Source: an uncultured Armatimonadota bacterium (GTDB lineage Bacteria > Armatimonadota > Fimbriimonadia > Fimbriimonadales > Fimbriimonadaceae). From it: DNA of 64,000 nucleotides. The notes beneath the pieces are model-generated. The model was not told the origin of the DNA. It saw only the letters and a program-made list of their open reading frames with translations, and ran no database searches. The DNA is taken from contig CAIYLG010000008.1 in assembly GCA_903927025.1 (NCBI GenBank), positions 62,001 through 126,000 on the forward strand. The letters are read 5' to 3'. Below are positions 45,039 to 64,000 of the stretch, piece after piece (position 1 is the first letter of the stretch; the number at the start of each line of letters is the position of its first letter). The translations under genes were made by a program, and so were the position numbers.

Positions 45039-45068
45039 ATCATATCATTGGGCTCCAGATACTGTCAA
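45039..45068 (-). promoter_or_regulatory. Sigma70-type promoter of the pil operon
   Basis: On the minus strand TTGACA (perfect -35 consensus) and TATGAT (one mismatch to the -10) are separated by 18 bp, with the predicted start of transcription about 30 nt ahead of the pilM ATG. This also supports the internal pilM ATG over the longer track start. Confidence 0.75.
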
Positions 45069-45759: not shown

Positions 45760-45796
45760 AAAAAAGCCGCAACCAGCCGTTGAAGCTGGTTGCGGC
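45760..45796 (-). terminator. Intrinsic terminator of the giant-protein operon
   Basis: On the minus strand a perfect 12-bp stem GCCGCAACCAGC / GCTGGTTGCGGC with a 7-nt loop is followed by TTTTTT, 20 nt past the stop of the 2329-aa protein. Confidence 0.95.
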
Positions 45797-45816
45797 GTGG
45801 AGGGGATTAGCCTTCC

Positions 45817-48800
45817 CTACTGCTGAATCGGGACTGGGCTCCACTGGGGCGAGATCGTCTCGAAGAACACGTTGGGGGTACCGGCTCGAGAGCTGCTCCA
45901 GAAGAGCCAGATCAGCGGCGGCCTTCTTGAGGAGGCCGCGAGGAAGGAGTAGGGGTCAAGGAACGCCGTCAGGTCGGACTCCGTGACGGTGCCGTCGATC
46001 GGGATCTGCACTTCAGACGACTCGCTGACAAGACCAACCTTCAGCGTCACGTTCACGAAGGTGGTTGTGTTGTCCTCCTTGAGCGCCGTGTACCGAACGT
46101 TGATGGTGTTGTCTTCGTCGAGGCCGGTGAAGTAGATCCTTCCATTGGCCGGATCCAGTTCGTAGGCGCTGTTGGCGCGAGTGGATCCACTGAGAATCAA
46201 GTTAACCGGGTTGCCCAAGTTGTCCGTTGCGATTCTCGCTGGGAGCTGGATACCGAACCGAGCGGTGGTGATGTACGGCCGACCAGGAGTGCTTGGGCTG
46301 TCTGCACCACGGTTGTAGGTGAATACCAGCCTGTCGTTGGTGATGTCGTCTCCCAGCACTGCAAACGCGCCGCTTGGTCGATGCCAAGGAGCTGCGTTGC
46401 TGATCTGGCGGTGATCGTACATCACAGTCGCCTTGGCGTATCCTGCGCCGCCACCAGCAGAGACTCGAAGGAATCTCGGAGTGTAGGTCAGCAAGATCTG
46501 CGCACTGGAGCTAGGAGTCGTCGTTGCGAACCTCACCGTTCCCAGCGTGGTGTCAAAGTAAACCTTGCCGCCCAGCAGAGTCTGGAAGCTGATGATGCCT
46601 GTCTGGCGATCATAAGTCTCAGATCCGGCCACTAGGAGCGAGGTGGTGACGCCGTTGAGGGTCTGCGCAAGCACGATCTGCTTCGCTGGATCCCATTGCA
46701 TACCGAGCGCACGGTATTCGCCGGATTGTCCGGAGGCAACCAAGATCTCATTGTCCTGCTCGGCAAAGTCCACAAATGCGCTTTGGTCGCTAGCGGGATT
46801 GTCGATCGACAGTCCATTTGCATCCACCACCGCAAAGTTCGAGGAGGACAGCTTCATGTGTCCCAGATAAACCTCTGGGTTGGCATGACCTTCAACCTGA
46901 CCGGTGAACGTGAGGTCCACCACACTATCGCCCGGCTTGAAGATGTTGCCCACGCCGTTGTAGACGCGGCCACTCGCAGACACTCCGGTCACAGACTGGA
47001 ATCCATTGCCGAATGGCAGCGCAACCGAAGGGCCGAACTTGGTTCCATCGAAGTACGAGTAGTACACATTGGACGTGCCTGCCGCAGTCGCCGGATAGAA
47101 CACCAGCGCTCCGGAAGCTGTCTGGACCACCGCTGGCTTGCCCTTCACGCTCTGCGTGTCGGTCAACAGTCCAATCGGCTGGGGCGGCGTTCCAACGGTT
47201 CCACCGCTACTCGGCGTCACCTTTGTGATGAAGATCGCCGATTCGCCGATGCGACCACCAGAAACGCTCTTCTGAGCCGATCCGGTGAACACCATGAACA
47301 TGTCGGAGAAGTAGGAAGACGCGGCGAACGGATTGGTGAGACCACCAGTCGGGAACGCTGGGTTGCCGAACTTCACTGTCGAACCGATTACGGATTCTCC
47401 GGTCTGGCTGCTGAACAGAACGTCCGGTGCCTGAGTGGGGTATCCCGCCGCGCCCTGGTTGAACCACTGCGTGTTGGATCCTGGCAGGAAGTTGTTCAAG
47501 TCCGAGATCGGCGAGAACGGATCAGCGCTGCCCGTCACTCCGAAGCTGCCAAACTTAGCTCCGTTGTTGAGGTTGCCGAAGTACAGGCGGTACGAACCGA
47601 GGTCCGTTGTCAACGCTGGAGCCGTTGGGGTCCAGTTTGGACGATCCGACGAGAACGCGACGATCAGGCCGCCATTTGGATCTCTTACCATCGCCGGCTG
47701 AATGTTGCTATAAGACAGCGGGTTCGCCGCGGAGGCAGGAGCCAGATTGTCCAGCATCGATGCGGTGTAAGGCGTAGGCGATGTGGTCAGCTGCGATTCT
47801 CGAATGTTGAAGTTCAATGTGAACGTTGGGTCGGAATAGGTTTCCGGTGCACCGTTGAACATCGACCAGATCTCCGAGTTGTTCGCATCCTCAAAGACGC
47901 GCATGATCTGAGAGTACGGGCCCACCGGCATACCGATGGGTATCGAAACACCCACCCGAGGAGCAACCGGCGGATAAAGAAGCGTACCGGCGCCGCCCGC
48001 GCCTTGAGTCTTGTTGAGAACGTCTGGCAACGGAATGCTGGTACCAGAAGGAATAAATGTTCCCGTGGTTCCCAGGTTCGCATTCGCACGACGTACCATG
48101 TTGGCGGTGAGCTGAGGAGGAGACACGTCCGTGACTCGGCCCTTCTGGAACGCAACCTGTTGGCCGATAGGCGCAACCGGTGCGAACGTGGTGTCGATGT
48201 CGCTCCAGAGGTCCAGGAATCCGTCCAGATACCCAAGCGTATCGTTGGACGCGGAGTAGATGCCCCACGGCGTTGGGTTCGCGTTGATCGTCGGCGGATT
48301 GCCGTACGGCAACTGAGATCCCTTCGCGACTCGAACGTTGAGCAAATTGACGTTTCCTTGGTTCAGCACCGTGAACGGCTGGAAGAGTCCTGAGTAGTTG
48401 CCAGCCCATGGCTCGAAGATTCCGGCGCCGTTGCTGGCTCCAGTTGGGTCATAGGCCTGGGTTCCCGTTGCCTTGCCTGGGCGAAGCGGCGAGTAGCCGG
48501 TTCCCTCTGCAAGCGTTCCAAGATTGACCGTCGGCGTTGAAACCGATATCTTCTCGTCGACATCAACCGAAGTCATCAGGTTGAAGCCTCGATACGCTTC
48601 CTGAGGAGTGCCGTCCAACAGTCCGTTGCCGTTGCTGTCCACAAAGGCTCGGACACGGCCGAAGTAGCCTTGAGGAAGCAGCGAGCCAGCCGAGTTCGGC
48701 ACCAGGGCACCACCGAGAGATACTTGACCGTTGGTATTTGCTGGCTGGAACTTCGGCACGTTGATTGTCATGTTGAACAGCGTCGGCTGGAACACTCGAG

Positions 48801-51800
48801 TTGTCGGCGAGTCTCCTAGCTGCATCTGTCTCAGCTGACCGGTTCCCGGATCCTTAACCATCGGCGGGATCAGGCTGACCGGATTGAACCGTGGATTGGC
48901 CGGAGTTCCGTTCGGATCCTTGACAACCTGAATCTGGGTCGTTTGGATGTCCGGATAGTCAAGGCTGGTATTCGGATAGTTATCCGGATAGTCCTCGAAA
49001 TTCGCATAGTAAAGCGGGTTCAACGGCTTATAAATCGCCTGTCTGCCACCCTGCCAGGCAAGGTTCTTGACATCGACGCGCACCTCGCCGAGACCGGTGC
49101 CATCCGGCACCATCAAACCCATCATGCTGCGGTCAATGACGTAGACCGGGGCGATGATTGAGGTTCCGTGATTAGCGATACCTGCCGAGGTTCCCAACAG
49201 CTGTGTGACCTTGCTCGGCTCTGCCAAAAGACCGGCGTTAATCGCGGGACTTCCGTTGACCAGGTTCTCTGGGTTGGAAGGCGAGTTGGACAGTCCGATC
49301 GACAGAATGTCCGTTCCAGGCAATCCGTTGTTGGACGGGTCAGGCATCGACAGCGCAATCGGGTTGGCCACGTAGTACGGCTGTCTTGCGTTGCCATTAC
49401 GCTGATTCTGAGCGACGGTCTGCTGGGCACCAAAGGTGTTTAGCGAACTGGTTGATAGAGACACTGTGATCGTTCCCGATCCAGGCGGCAGCGACTGGTT
49501 GCCGCCCGACTGAAATGGGAAGGCCAAAACTGCATAGCCATCCAGCAGCGTCTGGTTTGCCGTGATTGGGTCAGTGAACAGAGGCGGGTTGGTGCTGTGG
49601 TTCACATCCGTGAACTGCCGCGCCTCGACCGAGATCGACCGAATCGTCTTTCCGCCGGAACTGAAACTGACGTTGACGATGGGAGGAGGCACCGGATTGC
49701 CCTTTGTATCCGTCGTCGCAAACGGGAAGTCGTGCACGAGCAGGTAAACAGTCTCACCCCATTCGAAAGCCAAAGGCTTTCTAACGAATTTATACGTGGG
49801 ACTGAGAGCCTGCAGGTACGTTAGGTTTTGCCCAGTCGGCAACCTCAAAAGGTTGTAGCCCGCTTGAGTGACGAGGTCGACCTGCGTCAACCTCCAAGCG
49901 TCGCCTGCAGGGTTGTTTTCAGAAATGCCCTCACTACCGGGGGCGTTGCCGAGGCTGCCGCTTCCCGCCGTGTTGCTGAAAGCATAGAGGAAGCCACCCT
50001 GATCCGCACCGTACATCCAGTTATTGGAAATCGCCATGTTGGCGACCACCGGCCCAGGAAGGTTCGTTCGGAACCAAGCTTGACGTGTCCCATCGAGGTT
50101 TGAGGTGAGAGGATCCGCGAACAGAGCTTCGAACCGATTGTCAGGAGTTGGAATCGTGATGACTGGCGAAAGTCCGAGGGCGCCACTGGTCTGATAGACC
50201 TGCATTTTTGTAAACGAGATGCCAGCCTGGCTGCCCACGTTGAGTTCGTTAGTCGGATTCCACGGGATCGGGGTTGCCGTCGAGCTGCTTGCAAAGGCTC
50301 CTGTGACCGCATCAAAGCAGTAAACATATCCGTTCTGATTGAGAACGTAAACGAAGCCGTCAGCGTTGGTGTACGTCGCATTGACCTTATCCTGCTCGAC
50401 CACCGCAGGGCTGGACGTGAAGGACAAAGTCGGAACCGCTAAAGTCGCTAGGGTAATGGCATCGGTGATGTTTCCACCAGCATAGGTCCAGAACGGGCCG
50501 GATGCGGTGGAGGCGTTGTTCACCTTCATGCAATAGAACACACCATTGGAGTCATCGGCAGTGTTCTGGTTGGTTCCGAAGTACAGGTAGGCACTGCCGT
50601 TGAACTCGGCATAGACCGGAGTCATTGTGATGGCACCGATCGTCTGGCTGTTCTTAGCCGGGTACTGCCAAATTTCGTTGGTAGTGTGCGCTCCCGCATT
50701 TCCAATCGCGTTCAGAGCGTACATTCGCCCATTGACGGAAGGAGCGTAAATTGTTGGAATGTTTCCTGGAGCCCCGTAGGCCACGGATCCTTGGAACGGG
50801 CCGAGGTTGCCGTTGGCGCCTGGCGACGCCGGATAGGTCCAGACTCGCTTGGTCGTTCCAATTCCAGTGCTCATCACCGGCGCGGCAGCGTTACCATCCA
50901 TGTCGATGCAGTACACGCGACCGTTCGTGCTTCCAATGTAGAGATAGCTGTTCGGATTTCCGCTTGAGTCCGCTGGAATACCAGGCGTCTGAACGACCAC
51001 ACCCGAGCTAAAGCCGAACCCAGTCGGCATTTCCGAGCTAGCGTCTGCAACCGCGTTCGGGTCGGTGTCGGTAGCGCCTAGGGTGCTTGGATAGCTCCAA
51101 TATTCTGTCGTCGTCCCGTCGGCGTTGCCAGCGGAGTCGAGGCAGTGAATCACACCGTTCTCGTCTGCCACAACCACGACCTGGGTGAATACATCCTTTC
51201 CGAGGGTGTGGTTATAGACCCAGCAGTTTGCCATCACCGGCGTTGAAGTAATCGCCTGGTTCTGCTCACCAACGAAGATCACCTCGTCCGCGTAAACCTT
51301 CTTGCCTACATCGTTACCGGTGACCGCATTGTACGAGACGTTGGTGACCATCACAGACAGAGGCGAAGTCGTCTGAGTGTTGGAGAATCGTCGGTCTCCA
51401 ATCTTGACCCAACCGCCAGCAACAGTCTGGTCAACGAAATACGGATGTTGCACGCCATTCTCGGTGATCACATACTGCACTCCCGCTCCATAGGTGTGGG
51501 TCGCGTCATTGCCTGGAACGTAGGCGTAAATTTGGTACGTGCCGGTATTGAGCAAGGGCGGCGCGTAGGTGACGGCATCCGTAAATCCGTAGACGAACGT
51601 GGTTGGATCCTGAGCACCTGGAGTGCCAAGAACGTCGTACTCCGCCGTGTTCGTACCCTTCTTGGGCAGAGTTGGATCCGTGACCCATGTGTTGTTCGGG
51701 CTGGAATTTGAAAGGGATACATCCCAGACAACAGCATTCGCCGAACTCTCTGTGGGCGAGTAGTTCCACGTTGGAGTCGGGCTCGCGTTTGGATAGGAGC

Positions 51801-52806
51801 TAACGACCCCAGTAATTAGAGTCGTGAAGGCGCTTCGCGATCCACTCGCTGCGACCACTCCTCCAGAAGAGAACTGATTGAGGGCAGCGACAACTCGGGG
51901 GCTGTCGATGGTATTCACCGTTCCATCTGGATTGACGAGCCGAGACGAAACTGGGCTCGCGTTGTAGAAGCCGTTCGTCGGCACGCACATTGCGGCGTCG
52001 GCATACACCAGCTGGGAAGTTTTGCCTGTGGAACCGTAAGGAATGGTGTTGTACAGCGTGATCTTAATTGGATTGATCCCGTCGTACGGATACACCATGT
52101 TGGTCGAGAAACCACCATTTCCTAGGCGAATGAACCCGCCACCAGAGGCGTAGGTATCGATCGTCTCAAAGACGGTCGATCCTGCTGAGGTACTGATCGA
52201 GTAGGTGAAGTATCGTTGTGGATACTGGGTCGCTGGGTTGGCTGACTGATTAACCTGGGGACCAACCGGTACCCAGACATATAGAGCATAGAGATTAGGC
52301 CCCGTAGTCGGAGTGAACGTCCAAGTTGCCGATGCCGTTGCCTTTGTGGCAGGGGTCTCGTTTGGAAAAAACTGGGGGTTATCCATCGGAACAGTCGTCG
52401 ACGTAAGATACGCCGGTGCTCGCTCGCTGGAATTTGTGTTCGAAACTGGTTCTAAGTACGGCTCTGCCGCATCCTGGTTGTTCTGATTCAGTGCGAACGG
52501 ATCAGCGTTCCAAGTAGCACCGGAAAACGAAAACGTCCCTATCGTGTTTACGGGATAGGCGGGATACACCGAAGGGTCATCGGTGTTGTCAACGAGGAGG
52601 CTATTCACGTACTTGCTGTCCGGGCTGTTCGGCGTGAACCAGTTCAGGTAGGTGAACCCTGGGCCAGCGTCCGCGTTATAGCCGGTTCGGCTGGAGTACC
52701 CCTTGAGGGCGGGCCAGTCGTCAACCTGCGCGCTCGCGACGCTGCTGATCAGCATCGTTCCTGCAAGCGCCAGTAGGGGGAGCAGAATGCTCTTTCTGGT
52801 TGCCAT
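45817..52806 (-). CDS. Giant secreted protein with golvesin-like and PQQ-propeller-like repeats
   Basis: 2329 aa from the ATG giving MATRKSILLPLLALAGTMLISSVASA (signal peptide); an ATG 9 codons upstream overlaps the previous stop as ATGA and may be used instead. Two segments in the first 520 residues (TYQIYAYVPGNDATHTYGAG..., FIRLGNGGF/WVKIGDRRF) resemble golvesin/Xly carbohydrate-binding-like domains. From about 540 to 1010 repeats of the LYIGSTNGRVYCIDMDGN type suggest a PQQ-like beta-propeller. A long C-terminal part (about 1100-2330) contains many Asn/Ser/Gly-rich beta-like stretches with no family I can name. Last gene of the operon; probably surface-exposed or pilus-tip located. Confidence 0.85.
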   Translation of the reverse strand: MATRKSILLPLLALAGTMLISSVASAQVDDWPALKGYSSRTGYNADAGPGFTYLNWFTPNSPDSKYVNSLLVDNTDDPSVYPAYPVNTIGTFSFSGATWNADPFALNQNNQDAAEPYLEPVSNTNSSERAPAYLTSTTVPMDNPQFFPNETPATKATASATWTFTPTTGPNLYALYVWVPVGPQVNQSANPATQYPQRYFTYSISTSAGSTVFETIDTYASGGGFIRLGNGGFSTNMVYPYDGINPIKITLYNTIPYGSTGKTSQLVYADAAMCVPTNGFYNASPVSSRLVNPDGTVNTIDSPRVVAALNQFSSGGVVAASGSRSAFTTLITGVVSSYPNASPTPTWNYSPTESSANAVVWDVSLSNSSPNNTWVTDPTLPKKGTNTAEYDVLGTPGAQDPTTFVYGFTDAVTYAPPLLNTGTYQIYAYVPGNDATHTYGAGVQYVITENGVQHPYFVDQTVAGGWVKIGDRRFSNTQTTSPLSVMVTNVSYNAVTGNDVGKKVYADEVIFVGEQNQAITSTPVMANCWVYNHTLGKDVFTQVVVVADENGVIHCLDSAGNADGTTTEYWSYPSTLGATDTDPNAVADASSEMPTGFGFSSGVVVQTPGIPADSSGNPNSYLYIGSTNGRVYCIDMDGNAAAPVMSTGIGTTKRVWTYPASPGANGNLGPFQGSVAYGAPGNIPTIYAPSVNGRMYALNAIGNAGAHTTNEIWQYPAKNSQTIGAITMTPVYAEFNGSAYLYFGTNQNTADDSNGVFYCMKVNNASTASGPFWTYAGGNITDAITLATLAVPTLSFTSSPAVVEQDKVNATYTNADGFVYVLNQNGYVYCFDAVTGAFASSSTATPIPWNPTNELNVGSQAGISFTKMQVYQTSGALGLSPVITIPTPDNRFEALFADPLTSNLDGTRQAWFRTNLPGPVVANMAISNNWMYGADQGGFLYAFSNTAGSGSLGNAPGSEGISENNPAGDAWRLTQVDLVTQAGYNLLRLPTGQNLTYLQALSPTYKFVRKPLAFEWGETVYLLVHDFPFATTDTKGNPVPPPIVNVSFSSGGKTIRSISVEARQFTDVNHSTNPPLFTDPITANQTLLDGYAVLAFPFQSGGNQSLPPGSGTITVSLSTSSLNTFGAQQTVAQNQRNGNARQPYYVANPIALSMPDPSNNGLPGTDILSIGLSNSPSNPENLVNGSPAINAGLLAEPSKVTQLLGTSAGIANHGTSIIAPVYVIDRSMMGLMVPDGTGLGEVRVDVKNLAWQGGRQAIYKPLNPLYYANFEDYPDNYPNTSLDYPDIQTTQIQVVKDPNGTPANPRFNPVSLIPPMVKDPGTGQLRQMQLGDSPTTRVFQPTLFNMTINVPKFQPANTNGQVSLGGALVPNSAGSLLPQGYFGRVRAFVDSNGNGLLDGTPQEAYRGFNLMTSVDVDEKISVSTPTVNLGTLAEGTGYSPLRPGKATGTQAYDPTGASNGAGIFEPWAGNYSGLFQPFTVLNQGNVNLLNVRVAKGSQLPYGNPPTINANPTPWGIYSASNDTLGYLDGFLDLWSDIDTTFAPVAPIGQQVAFQKGRVTDVSPPQLTANMVRRANANLGTTGTFIPSGTSIPLPDVLNKTQGAGGAGTLLYPPVAPRVGVSIPIGMPVGPYSQIMRVFEDANNSEIWSMFNGAPETYSDPTFTLNFNIRESQLTTSPTPYTASMLDNLAPASAANPLSYSNIQPAMVRDPNGGLIVAFSSDRPNWTPTAPALTTDLGSYRLYFGNLNNGAKFGSFGVTGSADPFSPISDLNNFLPGSNTQWFNQGAAGYPTQAPDVLFSSQTGESVIGSTVKFGNPAFPTGGLTNPFAASSYFSDMFMVFTGSAQKSVSGGRIGESAIFITKVTPSSGGTVGTPPQPIGLLTDTQSVKGKPAVVQTASGALVFYPATAAGTSNVYYSYFDGTKFGPSVALPFGNGFQSVTGVSASGRVYNGVGNIFKPGDSVVDLTFTGQVEGHANPEVYLGHMKLSSSNFAVVDANGLSIDNPASDQSAFVDFAEQDNEILVASGQSGEYRALGMQWDPAKQIVLAQTLNGVTTSLLVAGSETYDRQTGIISFQTLLGGKVYFDTTLGTVRFATTTPSSSAQILLTYTPRFLRVSAGGGAGYAKATVMYDHRQISNAAPWHRPSGAFAVLGDDITNDRLVFTYNRGADSPSTPGRPYITTARFGIQLPARIATDNLGNPVNLILSGSTRANSAYELDPANGRIYFTGLDEDNTINVRYTALKEDNTTTFVNVTLKVGLVSESSEVQIPIDGTVTESDLTAFLDPYSFLAASSRRPPLIWLFWSSSRAGTPNVFFETISPQWSPVPIQQ

Positions 52807-52829
52807 AGATCTCACCAAAATGTTTTCTT

Positions 52830-55800
52830 TCATCGTCGATCAGCAAAAACGGGAAGTACCAGGCCTCGGAACGCTGTCGAGCCTGCTGTTCGCAGGTCAA
52901 GCGTCACGCTCTTGGAGTTGAATCCGAGATTCAGCAGCGAGAAGTTGGCGGAGTTAATCGTGCCATCCACTTGCATGACTTCTCCCGAGAAAGGACTGTT
53001 CCCAACCGTGGCTCCGTAATAGCCGTTGACAATAAGGACCTCGCCGGAATCCAGCCTTCTTGCAAAAACGGCCCGGAGGTCCTTTGCGTTGGTGCCAGAA
53101 GGGACTAGGTTGAGGCCGACGGGAGTCTGGAAGATGTTTCGATAAACCTCGTTGGGCATCATCCAGTCCACGCCGAGAGATTGAGACGCGCCCTGAGTTG
53201 GGTCGTACTGCACTTCGTAGACGCCAGTGCCGTCTGCGACCATGATCGCAATCATCGTGGTTGAGGAACTAGCACCCAGTTGGAGGACCTTGGCAGTCAC
53301 CGAGGTGAGGCCGTTCAGCCGATGGGCACCGCCTTTTCGGCGTACCGCAACCTGAGCGCCGTAAGTCGTGGACGTGTCAACAAGGTTGTCGAACGTGCCC
53401 GAATTAGGATCCCAGAACTGGGTCGCAGAGACGTCGGGGGTCGCGATTTCATTGAATACCGCCGCTCCGGCTGGGTTCAGAGGATCGTAGATCACGATGC
53501 CTCCGGTTCCATTGAGCGACTCGGCTGGGGCCGTTGGCGACGGCGAATCTAGGCCTGCGCCCACTCGGGTGGGAAGCGTGCCATTGATTCCGCAAACGTA
53601 CACATAGTGTCCGCCGCTAGGTCCATTGCCGGGCATGAGAACTCGAGAGACGCTGCTGTAGGCATACTGGCGACCCGAGACCGAAGCCGGGCTGTGCCAA
53701 AGGAGCACACCAACCTGAGGAGCGCCAGCAACGGTGACCGGCTGGCCGACCTGCTGGGTGTTCGGGTTGTAGTAGAAGCGATCGATGACTTCCACCAGTC
53801 GCTTGTTGCCCGTATCGGCAACAAGGTAGTGCTGCCAAAACTCATAGTTACTGATCTCGTTATCGCCAATCGAGACCGATGCCGCACCACCTGCAACGTT
53901 GACCACCGTGGTGTAGTACAGGGCGTCTCGCGGGCCGCTGAGCACGAGCGTTTCGCCAGGAGCGTAGCCACCAGGGGTAAACGTGGGGTCAAGCTGGAAT
54001 CCAGTGATGGATCTCTGCTCGACGCCGTTCTTATCCATTGTCGCCACCCGGTTCGCACCGGCATCGGCAAACAGAATCGTGGACTCCCCAAGCTTATAAG
54101 CCTTCGTCGGACGGATGAGCGGCTTGGTCACACCTGCGGTGTTGATGGCGCTCTGACCTGCACTCGTCGTGCTGCTTGTGGACCAGATCGGATTGCCGCT
54201 GGGGTCCATTTCAAGGATACGGCCCTCGTCGCAGATAAGGAAGTTGGACTTGGCAAACGTGTATAGCCCGGTATCGCCCCAGGCGGCCAGTGCGCCATCT
54301 CCGCCAATCGCACCATACGCGCTTGTCGAAGTCGCGCTGAGCACAGTCTGATTGAGCTTGACTTTGAAGTCCTCAAAACTCGTCGCCGCCGAAATCTGGG
54401 GCCAGACCACGTTGGGGTCAGCCGTGAACGGAGCGGTCGAGTCGATGGTCCATAGCTGATTCAGCCAAGGTTGAGCCGCTAACGGGTGAAGCTGAGCCGC
54501 AGGTATCTGCGCGTTCACACCGTACATGAGACCGGTGAAGCCAGGAATACCGCCACTGTATGCGCCGTTCAGAACGCTATACAGGTACGAATCCACTCCA
54601 ATGAAGACAGAGTTTCCAGTAACCAGCGGAGTGCCGCCGCCCGGGTAAGCGCCGTCAATAACGTGGAACCACTGAACAGGGTTCCATACCGAGCCGCCAA
54701 CCGTGTCAGGGTAGACCAACCGGTCAGGCGTTCCCGTCTGCCGGATGATCACGGGCTGGCTCAGGCTGATACAGTTGGTGATCTGCCCCTTCGTGGTATC
54801 CGCCAGAGTTGGGAACGTGAGAATTCCCGTCGCGGCGTCATAGCTATAGAAGCCAGAACCCAAGACCGACTGCGACTCCGGAGCGGAGGTGATGCTGCTC
54901 TTGGCAAAATCAGACTGGATGACCTGGAAGCCATCCGTCAGTGAACCCACGTTAATAGTCGCCGTTTGAGGCTCCGCATTGAGCGCCATCAAGATCGTCG
55001 CTGGAATCGAGTTGATCGGAGCACCTGATGAGGTCGCCTTCTTCGCGGCGACGGTGATGAACACCTGACCGTTTCGAATCGCAGGCCCACCGCGAATCTC
55101 AAAGTTGGACAGCGCCGGGTTGCCCAGGAACATTGGAGCAAATTGCTGAACGATCGAGTCATGGTCCGACATCACTGCCGGCACTGTGACTTCAGTGGTC
55201 TGGTTCAGAATCGTGTTGTACTGGCCGTACAGCTCATACCGCATGATGCAGTTGAAGGAGCCAAAGCCCTGTTCACGGAAGCCATAGAGGCTAGCCCCAG
55301 GTCCGCCCGAAATCTTCTGCGTGCCGGAAGGCGCGGTTGAGTGAACCACGTAAGCGGTGCCCTGTGGTGAAAGTGCGACTGCGCCATTGATCACACGATC
55401 TGGCGTCATGGGCGTGTCAGGGAGGACCACGTGTCCACGCTCGACTTGGCTCAGCGCTCCCGCGGTGCTGTCTCCCCAGTCAATTGTGTAGTCCAGGCGG
55501 AAACCAGAGACGGTTGCCGGTAGGCCGGTAACGCCAGTCTTGAAGGCAAAGCTCAGAATGCCGCTTCCCAAGTTCTGGGGAGGCACATTGCTGAAGTAAT
55601 TGGACATTTGAGCGTCAGTCCAAGGAGTTCCACTTGAATCCAAAACCGTGAGCTTTACCGCGCGGCTGCCCGTACCGGTATAGATCGGAAGGCTTCCGTG
55701 GAGGCTGGCACGCGTGGTGACCTGCAGAGCGGAAGACCCTGTGGTACCCGGAAGCGGGTCAACCTGGCTGGGGACTTCTCCGCGTGAACCGATCCAGATG

Positions 55801-57602
55801 CTGGAGAAACCTGCGGCGGCGTATGTCGAACCGTTCGGAGCGAACGGGACATACAGCACCTTGTCCAGGCCACCCGAGTTGTCATAGATCGGGATATATC
55901 CAACTGTCGGTCCATAAGAGAACTCAGGGAAATTGACTGTGGAGTTGTTGCCACCGATCACGAACGCTCCGTTGGTGCTGGAGGAGTAGCCCTGAGTGGT
56001 ATTGGAAACGTACTGGCCATGCTGAAGGTCAACAGCCCAGATCCGTCCTGACTTCTGCCCGTTCACCGTCTGGTTGTCGCAGATGTAGGCAACACCCTCA
56101 TGAACGGTCGGTGCAAGCGGCAAACCCGTTAGCGAAAGATCCTGATCCGATGCACCTGATGGTGGCGCAATCGGAGTCGTCTGCTGTGGTGTGCTGAGCA
56201 GCGCTCCCGTGTTCGGATCGCGGGGCATCAAGTTGAAAATGTGGAGGGTGCCTGTAGCGTCCACCACAAGAACTTCATCCTGAGGCGTGCCAGCTGCGCT
56301 GCCTGGAACTTCAGCGCAAACGGGAGGACTCAGGGGCCCGGGAAGCTGACTGCTCTCCCAAATCTCATCGTATGGCTTGCCAACACTGTAATCCTGAAGC
56401 CCATCATCGGGGTTGCCATCCTCGTCAATATCCGTAATCGGGTTGGCATCAAACACCTTAACTTGGCCGTTTGTGGTGACGACGAGGAGACCCTTATAAA
56501 GGGTAGGAGTGTTGTTGCTCACACCCGCGGCGGTGAGGTTGGCAGCGATGTTCGAGTCGGCGATATTGGATCGCTGCAGGAGAGGCGGATTCAAGTCAAT
56601 CGCGCTGCTGCTCACTTTCCGGCTGCTGGAACCCTGCTGGCGAGATTCGCGAAGCATGCCCACCATATTTACGGCCAGTTTGGCGGCGACGAGGCCATCG
56701 GCAGCGAGGAACGGATCCAAGCCAACAAAGCCTGTATTGAAAACATAGCTTCCGGTAAGCGAAGAGCGGTTCAGCGCAAGCGGCGAGCCGTTCGACGTCA
56801 CAGCGACGACGCCTTCTCCGATTCGACCAACCATCATGTTCGGCTGAGAACCTACGAAGCTCACACCCTGAAGGAGGTTAAAGTCGTTGAGAGTGCCGCC
56901 GCCAAGATTCGTCATCGTCAGCGTCGGGCTGGTTAAGATGTTGGAGCCGCCTCGGTTCAACAGATACACGTCCGACGAATTCAGGGCGTGAATCGAATTC
57001 ATCAGCGAGTTCGTAAAGTCGGTTTGGTAAAGCCCTCCGCCGCTAATGATGTTGAACGGGAACGGGAAGCTGTTGAATAGGTCGAGTCCAGGGGAACTGC
57101 TGATGCTGGAACCGTCTATCCAAAGCACACCGCCGCCATCCACAAACCTTCGCAGGCGGTTCTGCTGAAGCGGAGAAAGCTGAGCCAGATATCGCGGCGA
57201 CATCATCAAGAAGTCGTAGTTGGCCAGTTGAGTATCGGAGGTCTGGCTAAGGATGACTTCCCAGTAAGCCGCATTGCGCTTCGAGATCGGTGTCCCGACT
57301 GCTGGCGTATTGGAGGGGTCAATCTGGAGCCATCGAGTCTGAATCGATGGGGTTACCCTTGAGGGCGCAAACGGATTGTAGAAATTCCAACCCGCTGGCT
57401 TCACAGTGGTCGCCGAATCCAAGTTATACAGCGCGTAAGGCGCATAGTCCACCGGCACACCGGCGAGACTCGGCTTGGAAGAGTCGAGAATCACGATGCC
57501 CGCCCGGATATTTTGGGCGCGCTGAGCGAATGTCTGGGGTCCCGCTAACGCAGAAGCCGCGGTTGCGGCGAGCGCGACAAGACCGATCAGGCGACCAAGC
57601 AT
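52830..57602 (-). CDS. Giant secreted protein with propeller-like repeats
   Basis: 1590 aa from the ATG giving MLGRLIGLVALAATAASALA (signal peptide), 1 bp after the stop of the PilX-like gene; the track start lies 25 codons upstream. An N-terminal segment (YLAQLSPLQQNRLRRFVDGGGVLWIDGS, about 165-195) looks like a DUF4159/DUF4350-type glutamine-amidotransferase-like fold. Then come strand-rich repeats with PQQ-like phrases (LYKGLLVVTTNGQVKVFDANP, GVAYICDNQTVNGQKSGRIWAVDLQHG). It ends in a stretch without a visible anchor. Overlaps the next giant gene by 4 bp if that uses its upstream start. I infer a PilY1-like role by position, not by sequence. Confidence 0.82.
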   Translation of the reverse strand: MLGRLIGLVALAATAASALAGPQTFAQRAQNIRAGIVILDSSKPSLAGVPVDYAPYALYNLDSATTVKPAGWNFYNPFAPSRVTPSIQTRWLQIDPSNTPAVGTPISKRNAAYWEVILSQTSDTQLANYDFLMMSPRYLAQLSPLQQNRLRRFVDGGGVLWIDGSSISSSPGLDLFNSFPFPFNIISGGGLYQTDFTNSLMNSIHALNSSDVYLLNRGGSNILTSPTLTMTNLGGGTLNDFNLLQGVSFVGSQPNMMVGRIGEGVVAVTSNGSPLALNRSSLTGSYVFNTGFVGLDPFLAADGLVAAKLAVNMVGMLRESRQQGSSSRKVSSSAIDLNPPLLQRSNIADSNIAANLTAAGVSNNTPTLYKGLLVVTTNGQVKVFDANPITDIDEDGNPDDGLQDYSVGKPYDEIWESSQLPGPLSPPVCAEVPGSAAGTPQDEVLVVDATGTLHIFNLMPRDPNTGALLSTPQQTTPIAPPSGASDQDLSLTGLPLAPTVHEGVAYICDNQTVNGQKSGRIWAVDLQHGQYVSNTTQGYSSSTNGAFVIGGNNSTVNFPEFSYGPTVGYIPIYDNSGGLDKVLYVPFAPNGSTYAAAGFSSIWIGSRGEVPSQVDPLPGTTGSSALQVTTRASLHGSLPIYTGTGSRAVKLTVLDSSGTPWTDAQMSNYFSNVPPQNLGSGILSFAFKTGVTGLPATVSGFRLDYTIDWGDSTAGALSQVERGHVVLPDTPMTPDRVINGAVALSPQGTAYVVHSTAPSGTQKISGGPGASLYGFREQGFGSFNCIMRYELYGQYNTILNQTTEVTVPAVMSDHDSIVQQFAPMFLGNPALSNFEIRGGPAIRNGQVFITVAAKKATSSGAPINSIPATILMALNAEPQTATINVGSLTDGFQVIQSDFAKSSITSAPESQSVLGSGFYSYDAATGILTFPTLADTTKGQITNCISLSQPVIIRQTGTPDRLVYPDTVGGSVWNPVQWFHVIDGAYPGGGTPLVTGNSVFIGVDSYLYSVLNGAYSGGIPGFTGLMYGVNAQIPAAQLHPLAAQPWLNQLWTIDSTAPFTADPNVVWPQISAATSFEDFKVKLNQTVLSATSTSAYGAIGGDGALAAWGDTGLYTFAKSNFLICDEGRILEMDPSGNPIWSTSSTTSAGQSAINTAGVTKPLIRPTKAYKLGESTILFADAGANRVATMDKNGVEQRSITGFQLDPTFTPGGYAPGETLVLSGPRDALYYTTVVNVAGGAASVSIGDNEISNYEFWQHYLVADTGNKRLVEVIDRFYYNPNTQQVGQPVTVAGAPQVGVLLWHSPASVSGRQYAYSSVSRVLMPGNGPSGGHYVYVCGINGTLPTRVGAGLDSPSPTAPAESLNGTGGIVIYDPLNPAGAAVFNEIATPDVSATQFWDPNSGTFDNLVDTSTTYGAQVAVRRKGGAHRLNGLTSVTAKVLQLGASSSTTMIAIMVADGTGVYEVQYDPTQGASQSLGVDWMMPNEVYRNIFQTPVGLNLVPSGTNAKDLRAVFARRLDSGEVLIVNGYYGATVGNSPFSGEVMQVDGTINSANFSLLNLGFNSKSVTLDLRTAGSTAFRGLVLPVFADRR

Positions 57603-57603
57603 C

Positions 57604-60600
57604 TTAATGCACCTCTCCAAAGTAGGCAAGAACAGGGCTGACTGGCAGCCTCGGTAGAGGCGGCAGCGGCCGTCCATAAGAATCAGTTCGAATCAGGGTT
57701 GAGGTGCTGTTGTCCGTCACAAATCCGCTGGATCGTGCCGTGGACAGCGCCGGGTCGTAAGTGATGATCAGGTTCGGGACGATGCTGCCCGAGTTTGCGT
57801 TGACCGTGTATCCAGCCGGAACGTGTGATCCAGGGATCACGAATCCAGTGGCGGCAAAGTCGCCGGGAATCCATCCCCACTTCTTCATCCACTCCGCCTG
57901 AACCGAGGCGGGAGGTGGCATGTTCTCACTGACCGCACCGGAAATCACAACTCGTACATCGAGCGGTTCGCCGTAGAACGGCATCACCGGGGAAGCGCCA
58001 AAGTTCTCAAGACGAATCGCGTCGCGCTCCGGCTTGGTTCCCGCGCTGGCAATATAGGCGGAACGAGTGTCGTTTGGATCTGGATTGAACCAAGGCCCAG
58101 GAATCACGAAGAAGGAACCCTCTTCGGCGTACATGGAAGCCTGAATCTGAATATCGTGGGGCGCCAGAGCGAGCCGACCGACCATGTAGGTGTTGGTCGG
58201 GACGCTGTCCAGTTGAATCGGCCGAACCAGAAGCTCGTTCAATCCCTGGGTAAACAGGCTATAGGTGCCAGTGTTGCCCGAGGCTACGATGCTTTGGCCA
58301 TCCGAAGAAACTGTTGCCGTGCTTGAGTCGATCAGGGGGAACGATGTCTGCTCGAAGAGCGAGTACCTCTGGTAGGTTTCCTCACCGAGTCCATATTCCG
58401 GAATCGTCGTGGTCACGCCAGGGATAAAGGCAGAGGCCGCATTATCGGTTCTGGCGAACATGTACTGCGTGCTGCCACCCGCACCGTAGTTGAGATCCCA
58501 AGTAAAGAACGTATTGTTCGCGGCACCGTTGGCCATCGTGTGAGCAATCAGCACGCTGGTAGGGATCTTGGTGGAGGAACTGCCGTACTCCGCGTAATCA
58601 AACTCGTAGGGTCGAGTCGTGCTCGGGTTGTTCGCTGTCGCCGTCGGTCCGTTCGGGTCTCGGGCAAAGTCAAAGTCGAACGCGATCGGGTTGTTTGGGT
58701 CTGCCTGAATCGCGTTGAATCCGTTTGAATTCGGCGCGTCGGCAAACGGGGTGATCGCCTGGTTGGGAGCTGGCGCCACGAACTGAGTCGTATTGACGGC
58801 AACGTAATCCTTGGCCATCAGCATCATCATCGACTTCGAAGGTCGCGTAATCATCTGGCCCAGGGAATAGCCTTCGCCAACCTGGAGTCCGTTGGAACGG
58901 ATTCCCTTGAGGATGCTTCCTTCCACATAGATGGTTGCATTGGAAACGAGGGTGATCTGAACATCGGTGGGGATGATTCCCTTCACTCGTGCGTTGCCAG
59001 CGAAGTAGATCACTCCGTTGAATACGGGGCCCTTATCAAAATCCGTTGGGCCAAGGTTGGCGCTGATATTGATCGGGTTGGTGGGGTTGCCGACGCTGGA
59101 AGGCGTGAACGAGTTTACGATATGGCGCTGTCCATCGGTGCCTAGACCGATGCGGTAGCGAATGAACGGGTTGCCTGTATCGGTGCCATCAGCATAGTGC
59201 CAGTTCTTTTCAGCCTGTGGCACATTGGCCATAGATGACCGCTGAATGGTAAATCCGTCATCGAGGCCCTCGAACAGCGAACCCATAGGGACATAAAGGT
59301 AGCCCTGCCAACCGGAGTTCATTTCTCCGTTGTTGGGGTTCAGCCAGTCGTAGATGAGCGATACCTGGGTGCCTGTGTTCTGTCGTCCCGCTTCGTCGGA
59401 AGGGGTCTGCACATCGGACGGATTGTAGACATAGACGCCGGCGCCGTGTCCGTAGAGGCCCGTATTGCCGTTCCCAATTTGGACTCCGCTACCAGCCGAC
59501 ATTAAAACGTATCGGTTCTCGCCGGTATCGGGGTCGGTGAGCTCCATCGAAGGAACACCCTTGCCACCTACGCCGCGTGGGATGCCGTTGAGGTCAGGCT
59601 GGCCGTTGCCATCTCGGAAAACTCCACCGATCGTATTGAACAGACCACTCTGCGAATCCAGGCTGAGGCTTCCACCTTCGCTTAGGGTTCTCAGCTGCGC
59701 TGCGTTCCAAGTACCGTCAGGAAGGATGTCTCGAAGAACGATGTTTAGCTGACCGCCGTTGTAGTTCAGAGAGCCGTTGGGCTGGTCACCCTTTACAGAG
59801 CCAGCAACGTCGAACTGATCGCCCAGATAGCGATTGATGTCTAGCACAACGTTTCCATGGATCACCACCGAAGCGTTGGAGAACATTGAACCGCCGGTCT
59901 CAATCTGTCCAGCTGGCGATGGAATCGCGCCGACGTTGTACATCGCCTGAGTTCCGCCCAACTGATAAGTGAGTCCAGTGGAGGAGTTGAGTGCAAATGA
60001 GCTTGACGAAACCGTCGAGTTTCCGTAAATCGCGCCCAGTTCGGCAGGAACACCGATGTCAGCAGCTCGAGTGACGTTGTACTTGTTCGAGATGAAGCGA
60101 GCGGACTCAATGATTCCGATCGAAACAAAGGCCCGGTTCACCTGAGAGAACGGATACTTAGATTCGGACTGCTTCATCTGCCCAAGCGCCGTCCGGAAGC
60201 TTGGCTCGTCCAAGAAGTTCTGGAACTGGATCGGGTTGGCTGTGTTCTGGGTGGTCGGGTCATTGATGCTGACCAGTCCTTCGCGTCCAACCGACTCAAT
60301 GATAATGTAATTGCGCGCGAGGCCAGGCTGGCGGAGTGGGCCAACGGGGCTGTTGCTGAAAATATTGGCGTCGCTAGGTGCGTATCGCACTCGAACGAGC
60401 GATCTTCCGTTGAGGTACTGCACTCGGAAGAAGGGACCGAGTCCATCAGGTCCGCCCAGATCGATCTGCAAAGAACCAGGAACGAACGGCAGACTTTGGC
60501 CACCGCTTGTCTTTGCGGCTGGACGCAGATAATAAAGGTCCGGGTCCGAGGAGGCATTGGTGGTTCCCAGGAAAGTCTGCGTACCGCGCCAGTCTGCACC

Positions 60601-60834
60601 AAGCTGGCTCGCTAGAAGCTGAGCGTGAGCGTAGCGGATACCCGCCTCTGAGAGGTCGTTAGCCGCCGACCGGTTGCCCATGTTGTAGGACGTCTTCGAG
60701 TTCTTGTCGATGATGCCCAAGAACACGATGCCCAAGATGAGCAGGATTCCCAGCACGACAAGGGCGATGATAATCGTCTGCCCGCGCTGTCGCATTCTGC
60801 TGGCCATCGAAGTCGTTGGTTTCATGTTCATCAC
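57604..60834 (-). CDS. PilX-like N-anchored large protein
   Basis: 1076 aa. The start MASRMRQRGQTIIIALVVLGILLILGIVFLGIIDKNSKTSYNMGNRSAANDLSEAGIRYAHAQLL (after about 10 residues) has the PilX layout: short basic leader, RGQTIIIALVVLGIL hydrophobic helix and an 'AxxxxxxAGIxYAxxxL' helix with Glu at the expected position. PilX is a minor pilin of about 170-200 aa; here about 1000 residues of beta-rich ectodomain follow. ATGA overlap with the PilW-like gene, and its stop is adjacent to the next gene. Confidence 0.82.
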   Translation of the reverse strand: MMNMKPTTSMASRMRQRGQTIIIALVVLGILLILGIVFLGIIDKNSKTSYNMGNRSAANDLSEAGIRYAHAQLLASQLGADWRGTQTFLGTTNASSDPDLYYLRPAAKTSGGQSLPFVPGSLQIDLGGPDGLGPFFRVQYLNGRSLVRVRYAPSDANIFSNSPVGPLRQPGLARNYIIIESVGREGLVSINDPTTQNTANPIQFQNFLDEPSFRTALGQMKQSESKYPFSQVNRAFVSIGIIESARFISNKYNVTRAADIGVPAELGAIYGNSTVSSSSFALNSSTGLTYQLGGTQAMYNVGAIPSPAGQIETGGSMFSNASVVIHGNVVLDINRYLGDQFDVAGSVKGDQPNGSLNYNGGQLNIVLRDILPDGTWNAAQLRTLSEGGSLSLDSQSGLFNTIGGVFRDGNGQPDLNGIPRGVGGKGVPSMELTDPDTGENRYVLMSAGSGVQIGNGNTGLYGHGAGVYVYNPSDVQTPSDEAGRQNTGTQVSLIYDWLNPNNGEMNSGWQGYLYVPMGSLFEGLDDGFTIQRSSMANVPQAEKNWHYADGTDTGNPFIRYRIGLGTDGQRHIVNSFTPSSVGNPTNPINISANLGPTDFDKGPVFNGVIYFAGNARVKGIIPTDVQITLVSNATIYVEGSILKGIRSNGLQVGEGYSLGQMITRPSKSMMMLMAKDYVAVNTTQFVAPAPNQAITPFADAPNSNGFNAIQADPNNPIAFDFDFARDPNGPTATANNPSTTRPYEFDYAEYGSSSTKIPTSVLIAHTMANGAANNTFFTWDLNYGAGGSTQYMFARTDNAASAFIPGVTTTIPEYGLGEETYQRYSLFEQTSFPLIDSSTATVSSDGQSIVASGNTGTYSLFTQGLNELLVRPIQLDSVPTNTYMVGRLALAPHDIQIQASMYAEEGSFFVIPGPWFNPDPNDTRSAYIASAGTKPERDAIRLENFGASPVMPFYGEPLDVRVVISGAVSENMPPPASVQAEWMKKWGWIPGDFAATGFVIPGSHVPAGYTVNANSGSIVPNLIITYDPALSTARSSGFVTDNSTSTLIRTDSYGRPLPPLPRLPVSPVLAYFGEVH

Positions 60835-63068
60835 CGAATCACGTTCCTCACGCTTGCAGTCGCCTTAACCGTGGCGGTCTGCGGGTTGGGAATATTGGTC
60901 GTCTGCGGATAGTTGCGAATCGTCAGCTGCACCGAGATGAGCTGCCGAGTGTCGTAGTCCACCGCAAACACGTCGCTCGCATTCACTCCAGCCGGCACGT
61001 TTGCACCGCTGCCGTTGAACTGGAAGCGATAGGACACTTGGAACTGGCCGAACGGAATCGGATAGTTCGGATCCGAATTGAGCTTGATGTACCCCTTCTT
61101 GAAGCGAGGCTGAATCAGCGCGCTACAGAAGTTGGTGCCATCGTAAACACCCGGCTTAAATCCGGCGAGCTGCGATGGGGAAAGGCCAAGAAGCGCATAG
61201 TCTGCGGGCTCAGGCTGGTCCGTATAGTTGATTGAATACTGGTTGGGCCCAGGATTGTGCGTCGTTCGCACATACCGAACCGTATTGCCCTGGTTGGGCC
61301 CAGGAAGCTGATCGGGTCCGTAGACCACTTCGCTGCCGGGAACGATCGTGCACTTCGCGAATCCGCTCACTGGACTCAGTGGGCTTGCTGTGCCGTCGCC
61401 GTTCGGCGTGACTCGCAAGTCAATGTGTCGCTCTGGAGTGATGTTTGGAGCGTTGATCGCCACCCAGTTGAACAGTTCATTGATCGTCTGGAAGGCTGGA
61501 TCGTAAAAGTTGCCGTTGATGACGTAAGTGCTGCCGGCGAGAACTCGATTAGGGTCCTGGATCGGCGAATACACCGAAAGCGCGTCAGGGCTCGACAGAA
61601 CGGAAGGCAGGTTCTGAGGGTTGCTGGCGGGAGGAGACTGGCTGGGGTCTCCAACCTCGGAGATATTGAAGCTGGTGACAAGCGCGCCCTTTGCCGTGTT
61701 CATGTCGAACGGAACAAACAGATTGCGAATGTTCTGATTCTCGAGCCAGAGAGACCGATTGTTGGCGGCATTGATCGCCTGGGTGAACGGGTAGAGCCCT
61801 GAATTGGCGCTCACATAGTCATAGGTGAAGATGTCAAAGCATTCTTGACCTGAGTTGTAGTCCGTTTGAGACACGCTTGGGTCGTAGAAGTAGACGCTAT
61901 AACCAGGAGGGGCGCCTGATTTTCCATTCGAAGGGTCGTTTCTTCCAACGAAATACTGGTTAAAGCCGCTTGCACTTCCAGCAGGAGCCCAGCCCTGGGG
62001 CCAAACTCGCGCAATCTGGTTGGTCCACAGTCCGTATTGAGTTCTGTAGACGTCTGGCCCAATCGCCGCACCATTATTGGTTTCCTCACCCTGGCGAGAA
62101 GCTACCTGGCCCATCGCGGGGTCGTTGCTCATGTGGCTCGGGCGGAATTGGATGAGCGGCACGATGAGTGGGGCGTCACCAGAGTAGGTCACCTGGTGAG
62201 AGAACTTATCGTAAACCGGCTGGATCATGTCGTAGCGGTTGATCTCAGTCTGGATGACAGCATGGGTCTGCCAGTTCTGAATGATCGTCTTCTTGTTGGG
62301 ATAGGCGTTATCCCAAAGGAAGAACCGAGGATCGTCAAAGTTTGTGATGACGGTGTCCGTGACCGGGTCTGACAAGAAATAGGTTGGATTGGGTCTCCAT
62401 CGGCTTGATATATCGCCGTTAGAGCCAGTACCAGCTCGGTAGATATAGGGCTGAAATTCGACTCGGTACAGCACGAACAGGTTGTCTCTGGAGCCGCTTC
62501 GGCCCATCAAGATGCCGTCGTACGGGTTGTTGTATGCGTTGAATGGGTCTCTGAGCCCGACAAAATATCGAACCACCGTAGAACCAGGCGCAACCGGCAA
62601 CACAGGCTGACCGCGAGGGGCGAGCAGCGTTGGGTCAATAAATCCGTTATTTGGGTTCTTGTACTGCCCAGGTGACTGGGAGTAGTCGCCCTCTGCCGGC
62701 TTGACGATGTCGAGCTTCACGTAAGGCAGCACGACTTCGATTAGCGTAGGATTGGGATTAGACTGGCTTCCAATCTTGGGGACCTTCACGATGAGCGAGT
62801 TCGCTAGGACCGAAGCGGGGTTGCCGTTAAGCGTCGTGGCAACCACGTTCTGAGTGTTGCGAACCGAAGCGGCATTGCCGATCTCACGTGCGATTCGATC
62901 TGCCACGATCCGAGCGCGATCCTGTGCATCGCTGAACGCCTGGGCGGAGCGTGTGAAGTTGAACGTCTGAAAAACAGGAACAACGATAATCGTGAGGAGG
63001 ACGACCGAAATCGCCATCACGGTTAGAAGCTCAATCAGTGTGAAGCCGCTTTTGGAAAGTCGTCTCAT
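60831..63068 (-). CDS. PilW-like large pseudopilin
   Basis: 745 aa. Canonical prepilin signal MRRLSKSGFTLIELLTVMAISVVLLTIIVVPVF, with Gly at -1 and Glu at +5, followed by the amphipathic helix SAQAFSDAQDRARIVADRIAREIGNA, as in PilW/GspJ (AxxxxxRxxAxRIAREI). The remaining 650 residues, rich in Asn, Pro, Tyr and Gly, have no recognised domain. Both ends overlap neighbours by 4 bp (ATGA). Confidence 0.85.
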   Translation of the reverse strand: MRRLSKSGFTLIELLTVMAISVVLLTIIVVPVFQTFNFTRSAQAFSDAQDRARIVADRIAREIGNAASVRNTQNVVATTLNGNPASVLANSLIVKVPKIGSQSNPNPTLIEVVLPYVKLDIVKPAEGDYSQSPGQYKNPNNGFIDPTLLAPRGQPVLPVAPGSTVVRYFVGLRDPFNAYNNPYDGILMGRSGSRDNLFVLYRVEFQPYIYRAGTGSNGDISSRWRPNPTYFLSDPVTDTVITNFDDPRFFLWDNAYPNKKTIIQNWQTHAVIQTEINRYDMIQPVYDKFSHQVTYSGDAPLIVPLIQFRPSHMSNDPAMGQVASRQGEETNNGAAIGPDVYRTQYGLWTNQIARVWPQGWAPAGSASGFNQYFVGRNDPSNGKSGAPPGYSVYFYDPSVSQTDYNSGQECFDIFTYDYVSANSGLYPFTQAINAANNRSLWLENQNIRNLFVPFDMNTAKGALVTSFNISEVGDPSQSPPASNPQNLPSVLSSPDALSVYSPIQDPNRVLAGSTYVINGNFYDPAFQTINELFNWVAINAPNITPERHIDLRVTPNGDGTASPLSPVSGFAKCTIVPGSEVVYGPDQLPGPNQGNTVRYVRTTHNPGPNQYSINYTDQPEPADYALLGLSPSQLAGFKPGVYDGTNFCSALIQPRFKKGYIKLNSDPNYPIPFGQFQVSYRFQFNGSGANVPAGVNASDVFAVDYDTRQLISVQLTIRNYPQTTNIPNPQTATVKATASVRNVIR

Positions 63069-64000
63069 CGGTTGTTGTCCTCTTTCTGCAGGAACGTCTC
63101 ATTGGTGGACTTTCTCCAGGCCTGTCCCCAGCGATTGAGGCTGGAGAGGTTCTGAGGAGAGTTTCCTGTGAGGAAGAAGTTGGTTGGATTCCAAAGGACC
63201 CGGACCGTCACCGAGGCTCCCTTGACATTCCTGGCACCAAATCCATTCGCAAAACTAATCGATTGCGCGCTAGGGTCAACGCTTGTGAGGTCGACGAACG
63301 GGAGCGCTACCGTGGCGTCATTTCCGCCTGTGACCAAGAAGTCCTGGCCCATGAGGTCGTGGGTGACACCCGATCCGTCCACATAGGTGACTTCGCCGAT
63401 CGTCACCTTTCGGCCGTTGTCTGAATTCGGGAAGTAGATGCGCGTTGCCGAACCGAGGCCGGTCTGGGTGCCACCAATGTAAAACTGACCCACGCTCAGG
63501 TTGGTCGGCGTTGTCGCCACCGAATACTGCGCGGCAGACTTTAGGACCTGAACCGAGAACTCCTGGTTGACCATGTACAGAGCCCGTACCGCTCGGTTGT
63601 CCATCTGAACATTCACCGTCGTTCCGTCTGGCAGCAGGATCACTCCGGTGATGCCGTTGGTCGGATCGTTGTCCAGGTCGTAGAAGGTCACGACTCCGGA
63701 AGACTTGTCGATCGAGATCAGGTTCTGGCTCGGATTGGAAGGATTCACTTCGCAGTAAATTCCACCTGTGTCGAGGTCCATCAGAACGAAGTTGTCGGCC
63801 TTAGGTCCGTTGGCTCCGGAGGTGTCGGTCGTCCCATCCCCTCGCGCTGTTTCCAGCGTCGGGATCGGAGTGTTCGGCAATCCATCAGGTCCGGCGTTGC
63901 CAGCGACCTTGAGTCCGCCAACCGGCAGCTTGTGCTGAGCAAAAACGGCCTGAGGGTTAGCCGAGGAAACTTCGCCTGGCAGAACGCCAATGTCGACTCG
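63065..64000 (-). CDS. Open-ended first visible gene of the minor-pilin operon
   Basis: The frame stays open to the right edge (at least 311 aa); the track's start at 63880 is only an internal TTG. Readable text includes RVDIGVLPGEVSSANPQAVFAQHKLPVGGLKVAG at the edge, then FVLMDLDTGGIYCEVNPS, a run LDNDPTNGITGVILLPDGTTVNVQM, and FLVTGGNDATVALPFVDLTSVDP. No prepilin signal is visible because the start lies outside. By position it could be a PilV/FimU-like pseudopilin with a large body, but the visible part does not prove it. Confidence 0.7.
   Translation of the reverse strand, partial: RVDIGVLPGEVSSANPQAVFAQHKLPVGGLKVAGNAGPDGLPNTPIPTLETARGDGTTDTSGANGPKADNFVLMDLDTGGIYCEVNPSNPSQNLISIDKSSGVVTFYDLDNDPTNGITGVILLPDGTTVNVQMDNRAVRALYMVNQEFSVQVLKSAAQYSVATTPTNLSVGQFYIGGTQTGLGSATRIYFPNSDNGRKVTIGEVTYVDGSGVTHDLMGQDFLVTGGNDATVALPFVDLTSVDPSAQSISFANGFGARNVKGASVTVRVLWNPTNFFLTGNSPQNLSSLNRWGQAWRKSTNETFLQKEDNNR

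Follow-up and report, generated by a model that had tools for sequence, protein, structure and literature searches.

Giant minor pilins and propeller-bearing secreted proteins as a probable type IV pilus priming and tip complex in a Fimbriimonas-like Armatimonadota bacterium

What is known of type IV pilus tip complexes comes from a few Proteobacteria, Myxococcota, and Firmicutes. In the canonical arrangements, FimU-PilV-PilW-PilX-PilY1 and PilHIJK-PilC, minor pilins of ~150-250 aa are followed by a propeller protein, and in Pseudomonas the whole FimU-PilV-PilW-PilX-PilY1 set comes to ~2000 residues. Larger pilins have been described in other settings: in modular pilins such as PilB and PilC of Streptococcus sanguinis the pilin helix carries a large functional module, with 860 aa the extreme of the published survey (PMC8179133), and ComZ of Thermus thermophilus, a GspK-type pilin of 554 aa with a very large extra beta-solenoid domain, is proposed to sit at the tip (PMC6561018). 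Here we analyse a 64,000-nucleotide stretch of an uncultured bacterium of the Fimbriimonadaceae (contig CAIYLG010000008.1, positions 62,001 to 126,000; hereafter the window), in which five consecutive minus-strand genes encode three giant proteins resembling PilV, PilW, and PilX (V, W, and X) and two secreted giants, G1 and G2. Together these probably form the priming and tip complex of a type IVa pilus (T4aP)-type machine, and the set is best read as a variant of the minor pilin/PilY1 complex specific to this phylum.

The five genes lie inside a full type IV pilus locus, which argues strongly for a pilus-tip reading. On the minus strand the order is pilB-pilT-pilC-pilD-pilA-like-pilV-pilW-pilX-G1-G2, an intrinsic terminator, and then pilM-N-O-P-Q1-Q2 (Table 1). 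The sequence-only reading, which had described an operon of an open-ended gene and proteins of 745, 1076, ~1590, and ~2330 aa, was accurate as to the places, sizes, and overlaps of the frames. It was also right about the single strong terminator at the end; 2 terminator patterns occur in the region against 1.2 expected, a count that is not decisive by itself, and the 13-pair stem is strong. The junctions, predicted to be ATGA or 1 bp, read ATGA at V/W and G1/G2, 1 bp at X/G1, and GTGA at W/X; the G1 start is the ATG one base past the pilX stop, giving 1590 aa where the mechanical open reading frame (ORF) has 1615 aa. Its operon start has to be moved. The open-ended frame belongs to a PilV-like gene of 690 aa that extends past the window (C8:125065-127137; 63065-65137 in window numbering). 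The upstream genes, in which a pilV/fimU homologue was to be sought, are this pilV and, beyond it, a 321-aa GspG/PilA-like pilin and then pilD, pilC, pilT, and pilB, where the run starts; pilM to pilQ lie on the far side of the terminator.

The cluster encodes a complete T4aP-type machine. In hidden Markov model (HMM) searches PilB matches PF00437 at 1e-131 and the MshEN domain PF05157 at 1e-18, the PilB model TIGR02538 being its best but below cut-off; the retraction ATPase PilT scores over the cut-off of TIGR01420 (E=2e-151); and PilC, PilD, PilM (over cut-off), and the secretin PilQ are all recognised. The PilN-like and PilO-like proteins, which fit by position and conservation, gave no match in the HMM search of the cluster proteins, and the PilP-like protein gave a weak one to T2SSC.

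The arrangement is not peculiar to one genome. The cluster was read in 61 genomes, the present one among them, which represent many families of the phylum, and V-W-X-G1-G2 are consecutive on one strand in every stretch or contig that covers them; the exceptions are contigs that end early (G052, G058), a broken G1 in G118, and two genomes in which the genes had to be called with care (G128, G141). With order and sizes conserved across these genomes, the stretch is more than a random collection of ORFs. In the relatives G1 is mostly ~1340-1760 aa and G2 2084-3471 aa, and the junctions typically overlap or are short. The X profile matches 271 of the 291 Armatimonadota genomes (189/194 of those of high quality), and G1 matches 221/291 with a single-sequence query and 94/111 by profile, its absences falling mainly in families whose X matches are weak too (f6, f7, f17, f18, f22). 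The orthologues thus occur together across Armatimonadota, a check that the sequence-only reading had proposed. Between-genome distances of the module families correlate mutually (r 0.78-0.91) and track those of PilB, PilC, PilM, and PilT; this is expected from vertical co-inheritance and by itself is no proof of physical interaction. In two genomes, G163 (L049/L050) and G206 (L061/L062), the pilA-like gene and V-W-X-G1-G2 stand together, with neither pilB-C-D nor pilM-Q recognised over the 40 kb covered.

Two apparent irregularities concern G1. In G118 (L090), a single-contig genome, the gene is split over two frames, by frameshift or decay, in a cassette otherwise intact. A PilX-G1 fusion suggested by ORFs of ~2450 aa in G128 and G141 was rejected: the long frame is an extension of the G1 frame through GC-rich DNA over pilX, out of frame with it, and X keeps an intact frame of its own. 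As to distribution beyond the phylum, a taxonomic scan with the PilX profile, which depends on one peptide pattern and covers the best 80 of 107 relatives, gave, among the matches listed, records titled Armatimonadetes, Fimbriimonadia, or Chthonomonadales, or titled uninformatively, with one exception; restriction of the PilX giant to Armatimonadota is therefore likely. The exception, L183, is titled Propionibacteriaceae UBA6122 and is probably a mislabelled Armatimonadota genome. A literature search found no paper on Armatimonadota minor pilins.

V, W, and X each join a class III prepilin leader (G^TTLIEILVV, G^FTLIELL, and RG^QTIII, respectively) to a hydrophobic alpha-1. Glu5 is invariant in the V and W alignments; the X alignment keeps Gly(-1) (Gly18-Gln19) and lacks Glu5, as is known of PilX and GspK (PMC7541494). 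Gene order, leaders, and Glu5 pattern are thus those of FimU-PilV-PilW-PilX-PilY1 and PilHIJK-PilC, attached to the same kind of machine. Comparison of the leaders with PilW, PilX, and GspJ/K profiles, also proposed beforehand, scores them as prepilins: W matches N_methyl over cut-off (E=7e-5); some V match N_methyl too; the PilV model TIGR02523 is the best for V (E=6e-6 for the window protein, 2e-8 in one relative), at 26.7 bits against a cut-off of 52.2; and the GspK model matches one X among the relatives (E=4e-4). The window X protein itself matches no curated PilX/GspK-type model.

Where the three depart from canonical minor pilins is in size. Complete ORFs in the relatives span 503-744 aa for V, 508-803 for W, and 741-1115 for X, all above the canonical range; the surplus per pilin is nearer 450-900 residues than the 650-1000 first claimed. 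The predicted structure of X (pLDDT, the predicted local distance difference test, 87.5; pTM, the predicted template modelling score, 0.89) has the 60-residue helix of a pilin and a beta-rich ectodomain. Foldseek gave no PDB match to it at E<=0.001; its weak matches, which have low TM-scores and include glucanase and carbohydrate-binding folds, are given no interpretation. A PDB profile search with the X alignment was empty, and with V and W it matched solved pilins over the helix only; the ectodomains of all three match no Pfam domain. The C-terminal end of W resembles, by eye and without HMM support, the last strands of PilW/GspJ. We considered a pilin fold with an insertion in V and W by building chimeras of their N- and C-terminal ends, but only the N-terminal motif scored, so that such an insertion is proposed from inspection of the sequence ends. 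Verru_Chthon cassette proteins were also considered as relatives and set aside, the match being limited to the prepilin leader.

Such proteins recall the modular pilins in that a pilin helix bears a large module; unlike those, V, W, and X are all large in one conserved set, and X exceeds the survey extreme. The likeness of X to ComZ raises the question of whether the giants are the DNA-receptor tip of a competence pilus, as ComZ/PilA2 are in Thermus; ComZ, itself GspK-like, carries a large additional domain at the tip and binds DNA (PMC6561018). A ComZ-like beta-solenoid for X is not supported by the empty profile search and the Foldseek threshold just given, no ComZ or beta-solenoid appears among the best 50 Foldseek matches listed for the X model, and ComZ has no propeller partners; we regard a competence tip as scarcely credible.

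G1 is the protein that would correspond to PilY1: it follows pilX directly, and, like G2, begins with a Sec-type signal sequence in most relatives (by eye). Behind the signal lie a DUF4159-like alpha/beta domain (~30-320), beta-propellers from ~340, and an NHL-like repeat near 1095-1160. The Foldseek matches of the model of residues 1-1200 (pLDDT 87.3, pTM 0.89) are proteins that have between one and three beta-propellers (Utp17, Lgl2, DDB1, SF3B3, tetrathionate hydrolase, Rv3035); global TM-scores are low, and we therefore claim propeller folds but no particular relative or blade count. The pilin helix of X and the propellers of G1 are outcomes of structure prediction in favour of the sequence-only reading. 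PQQ- and golvesin-like domains had been proposed for both giants; they are present in G2, but in G1 the propellers are accompanied instead by the DUF4159-like domain and a calcium motif of the PilY1 type. DUF4159 scores over cut-off in two relatives (E up to 1e-8), the window protein staying below it at E=0.003. A von Willebrand factor A (vWA) head for G1 was not supported, and by domain search neither vWA nor DUF4114, the N-terminal domains of PilY1, is present.

The calcium motif of G1, DIDEDGNPD, lies between strands 380-385 and 413-416 in the first propeller blade of the model (DSSP). In PilY1 the motif Dx[DN]xDGxxD is likewise a surface loop between two propeller strands (PMC8833165; PMC13190605). 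All four key residues align in 48 of the 53 G1 relatives, and Asp399, Gly401, Asp412, and Trp415 are conserved in 53/53. Since such motifs arise often, we take this as a PilY1-like way of working and not as descent from PilY1.

G2 begins with its signal sequence, followed by golvesin-like domains, a PQQ/BamB-type propeller, and a long conserved C-terminal part. Golvesin_C was found in 13 of 14 relatives and PQQ_2 in 12 of 14; the family profile matches BamB at E=1e-15. Propellers are thus supported in G1 by Foldseek and in G2 by the BamB profile, with no PilY1-specific similarity seen. The start of mature G2 is similar to that of PQQ propeller proteins, and the golvesin domains may therefore be inserted behind the first propeller strand.

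A different role for G1 and G2 must be weighed here, namely that they are exported cargo of a piston-like pilus in the style of a type II secretion system (T2SS), held briefly by X and ending free or bound to the cell wall. The module does resemble the GspH-I-J-K tip in its I-J-K order and in X, GspK-like and lacking Glu5; GspK has been proposed to touch T2SS substrates (PMC7541494), and both giants combine Sec signals with enzyme-like or lectin-like folds. But the genome has a separate T2SS-like cluster (L193:7108-18814; G000:C38:53108-64814) with gspE, F, G, H, I, J, a probable K, L, M, N, and D, identities other than E, F, D, and the pilins being by position. Its G, H, I, and J pseudopilins are of ordinary size, and the large size is thus specific to the pilus locus. 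Moreover, the pilus cluster holds pilM and the retraction ATPase gene pilT, where type II secretion would have GspL/GspM in place of PilM/PilN and no PilT, and a single fixed partner pair kept across a phylum would be unusual for cargo. We consider the cargo explanation unlikely.

For the tip complex that we favour, the following sequence of events can be proposed. PilD would cleave the leaders of V, W, and X, seen as motifs, and their hydrophobic helices would hold the three together in a complex of I-J-K type, in which X, being without Glu5, is presumably uppermost by analogy with PilX and GspK. Sec would export G1 and G2, both of which would dock on X. G1 would take PilY1's part with its alpha/beta head and a propeller that, judging from the motif, possibly requires calcium; G2, together with the large ectodomains, would bind polymers or surfaces as an adhesive head. 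PilB would then push the pre-built head out through PilQ and PilT retract it, and the mass of the head might also halt retraction, as proposed for PilY1 complexes. A more modest alternative stops short of adhesion: the module would only prime and cap assembly, its large domains sitting in the periplasm and secretin as spacers of the structure or as corks. PilY1/minor pilin complexes have indeed been proposed to prime extension and cork retraction (PMC7541494), but golvesin-like domains and very large ectodomains exceed the needs of priming, and priming complexes elsewhere are ~1/3 the size of this module; we hold a purely priming role to be very improbable. An adhesive tip sits well beside Fimbriimonas ginsengisoli, which has fimbriae, is non-motile, and is inferred by its authors to attach; the portions of its description drawn on here list PilB, C, D, Q, M, and T and do not name the giants (PMC4072686).

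Several observations count against a tip complex of this kind. The equivalog cut-offs of PilV, PilW, PilX, and GspK are not reached by V, W, or X, which are for that reason named only "-like." The two propeller proteins, at ~1590 and ~2330 aa, do not match the PilY1 family PF05567 in the domain search; the PilY1 structure 3HX6 is not among the best 50 Foldseek matches listed for G1, whose DUF4159-like head differs from PilY1's vWA or DUF4114; and PF05567 was found in 0/291 genomes of the phylum, in a search without a positive control. The calcium motif is generic: its exact form occurs in 12/60 of the PilW-like proteins, as well as in 3/58 G2, 2/59 X, and 0/59 V. Finally, the five proteins total ~6400 residues and ~690 kDa, about three times the canonical tip-complex mass, and the passage of such a tip through a secretin calls for an explanation. 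On balance, order, leaders, Glu5 pattern, and a propeller partner with a calcium motif indicate a module that works like the minor pilin/PilY1 complex, and by family tests it has no PilY1 member. The proposed surface machine displaying large ectodomains stands as to gene set, leaders, and propellers; the pilus-tip site, the function, and calcium binding we infer.

Some further features of the locus and genome may be noted. PilQ is in two pieces (38763-41150), a protein of 228 aa that has an STN domain and a Gly/Met-rich tail, and a secretin of 558 aa whose linker is Gly-rich; most clusters read show this split. A sigma-70-like site at 45039-45068 (11/12 matches) coincides with the annotated pilM start, which suggests that pilM probably starts further inside the annotated frame and has its own promoter. 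The prepilin N_methyl motif has 84 matches in the whole genome, many in proteins of ~300 aa, comparable with the 79 PulG-type genes reported for F. ginsengisoli (PMC4072686).

Table 1. Features of the pilus locus, in window coordinates
Feature	Coordinates	Strand	Basis
PilV-like giant minor pilin, C-terminal 311 aa	63065..64000	-	open frame at window edge
PilW-like giant minor pilin, 745 aa	60831..63068	-	N_methyl match, invariant Glu5
PilX-like giant minor pilin, 1076 aa	57604..60834	-	leader RG^QTIII without Glu5, predicted structure
Predicted pilin alpha-1 helix of PilX, residues 16-75	60610..60789	-	structure model
G1, secreted 1590-aa protein	52830..57602	-	ORF, signal sequence, DUF4159-like and propeller model
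G1 DIDEDGNPD, residues 391-399, putative PilY1-type EF-hand-like calcium motif	56406..56432	-	motif and model
G2, secreted 2329-2338-aa protein	45817..52833	-	ORF, signal sequence, golvesin-like and PQQ/BamB domains
Best Golvesin_C stretch of G2, residues 418-489	51367..51582	-	E=6e-7
PQQ/BamB-type propeller region of G2, residues 636-848	50290..50928	-	Pfam stretch
Intrinsic terminator ending the pilB...G2 run	45766..45796	-	13-bp stem and T6
pilM	43739..45043	-	PF11104 E=1e-46; TIGR01175 over cut-off
pilN-like	42797..43732	-	position and conservation; without HMM match
pilO-like	42002..42784	-	position and conservation; without HMM match
pilP-like	41226..42002	-	weak T2SSC match, position and conservation
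pilQ N-terminal piece Q1, STN domain	40464..41150	-	HMM search
pilQ secretin Q2	38763..40439	-	Secretin E=2e-40; TIGR02515 E=1e-44, below cut-off

A bolder form of the tip-complex reading can be entertained only tentatively: that Armatimonadota have a type IV pilus tip of their own, in which a DUF4159-propeller G1 either replaced PilY1 independently or is a PilY1 descendant changed past recognition. With the giant golvesin/PQQ protein G2 and three giant pilins with new ectodomain folds, it would make a ~700 kDa head that must pass the secretin or be assembled beyond it, and tip export would then have to follow a route without a described precedent in model pili. For the tip complex in general, the most interesting consequence is the crossing of PilQ by so large a head; the module turns the assembly of a tip about three times the canonical size, and its transport through a secretin, into a testable question. 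Its minor pilins are the largest that we found described, and a function is now proposed for large hypothetical proteins of a phylum little studied experimentally. A phylum-wide alternative tip would also offer a natural experiment on the essentials of such complexes: the Glu5-less pilin, the calcium propeller, and the docking order.

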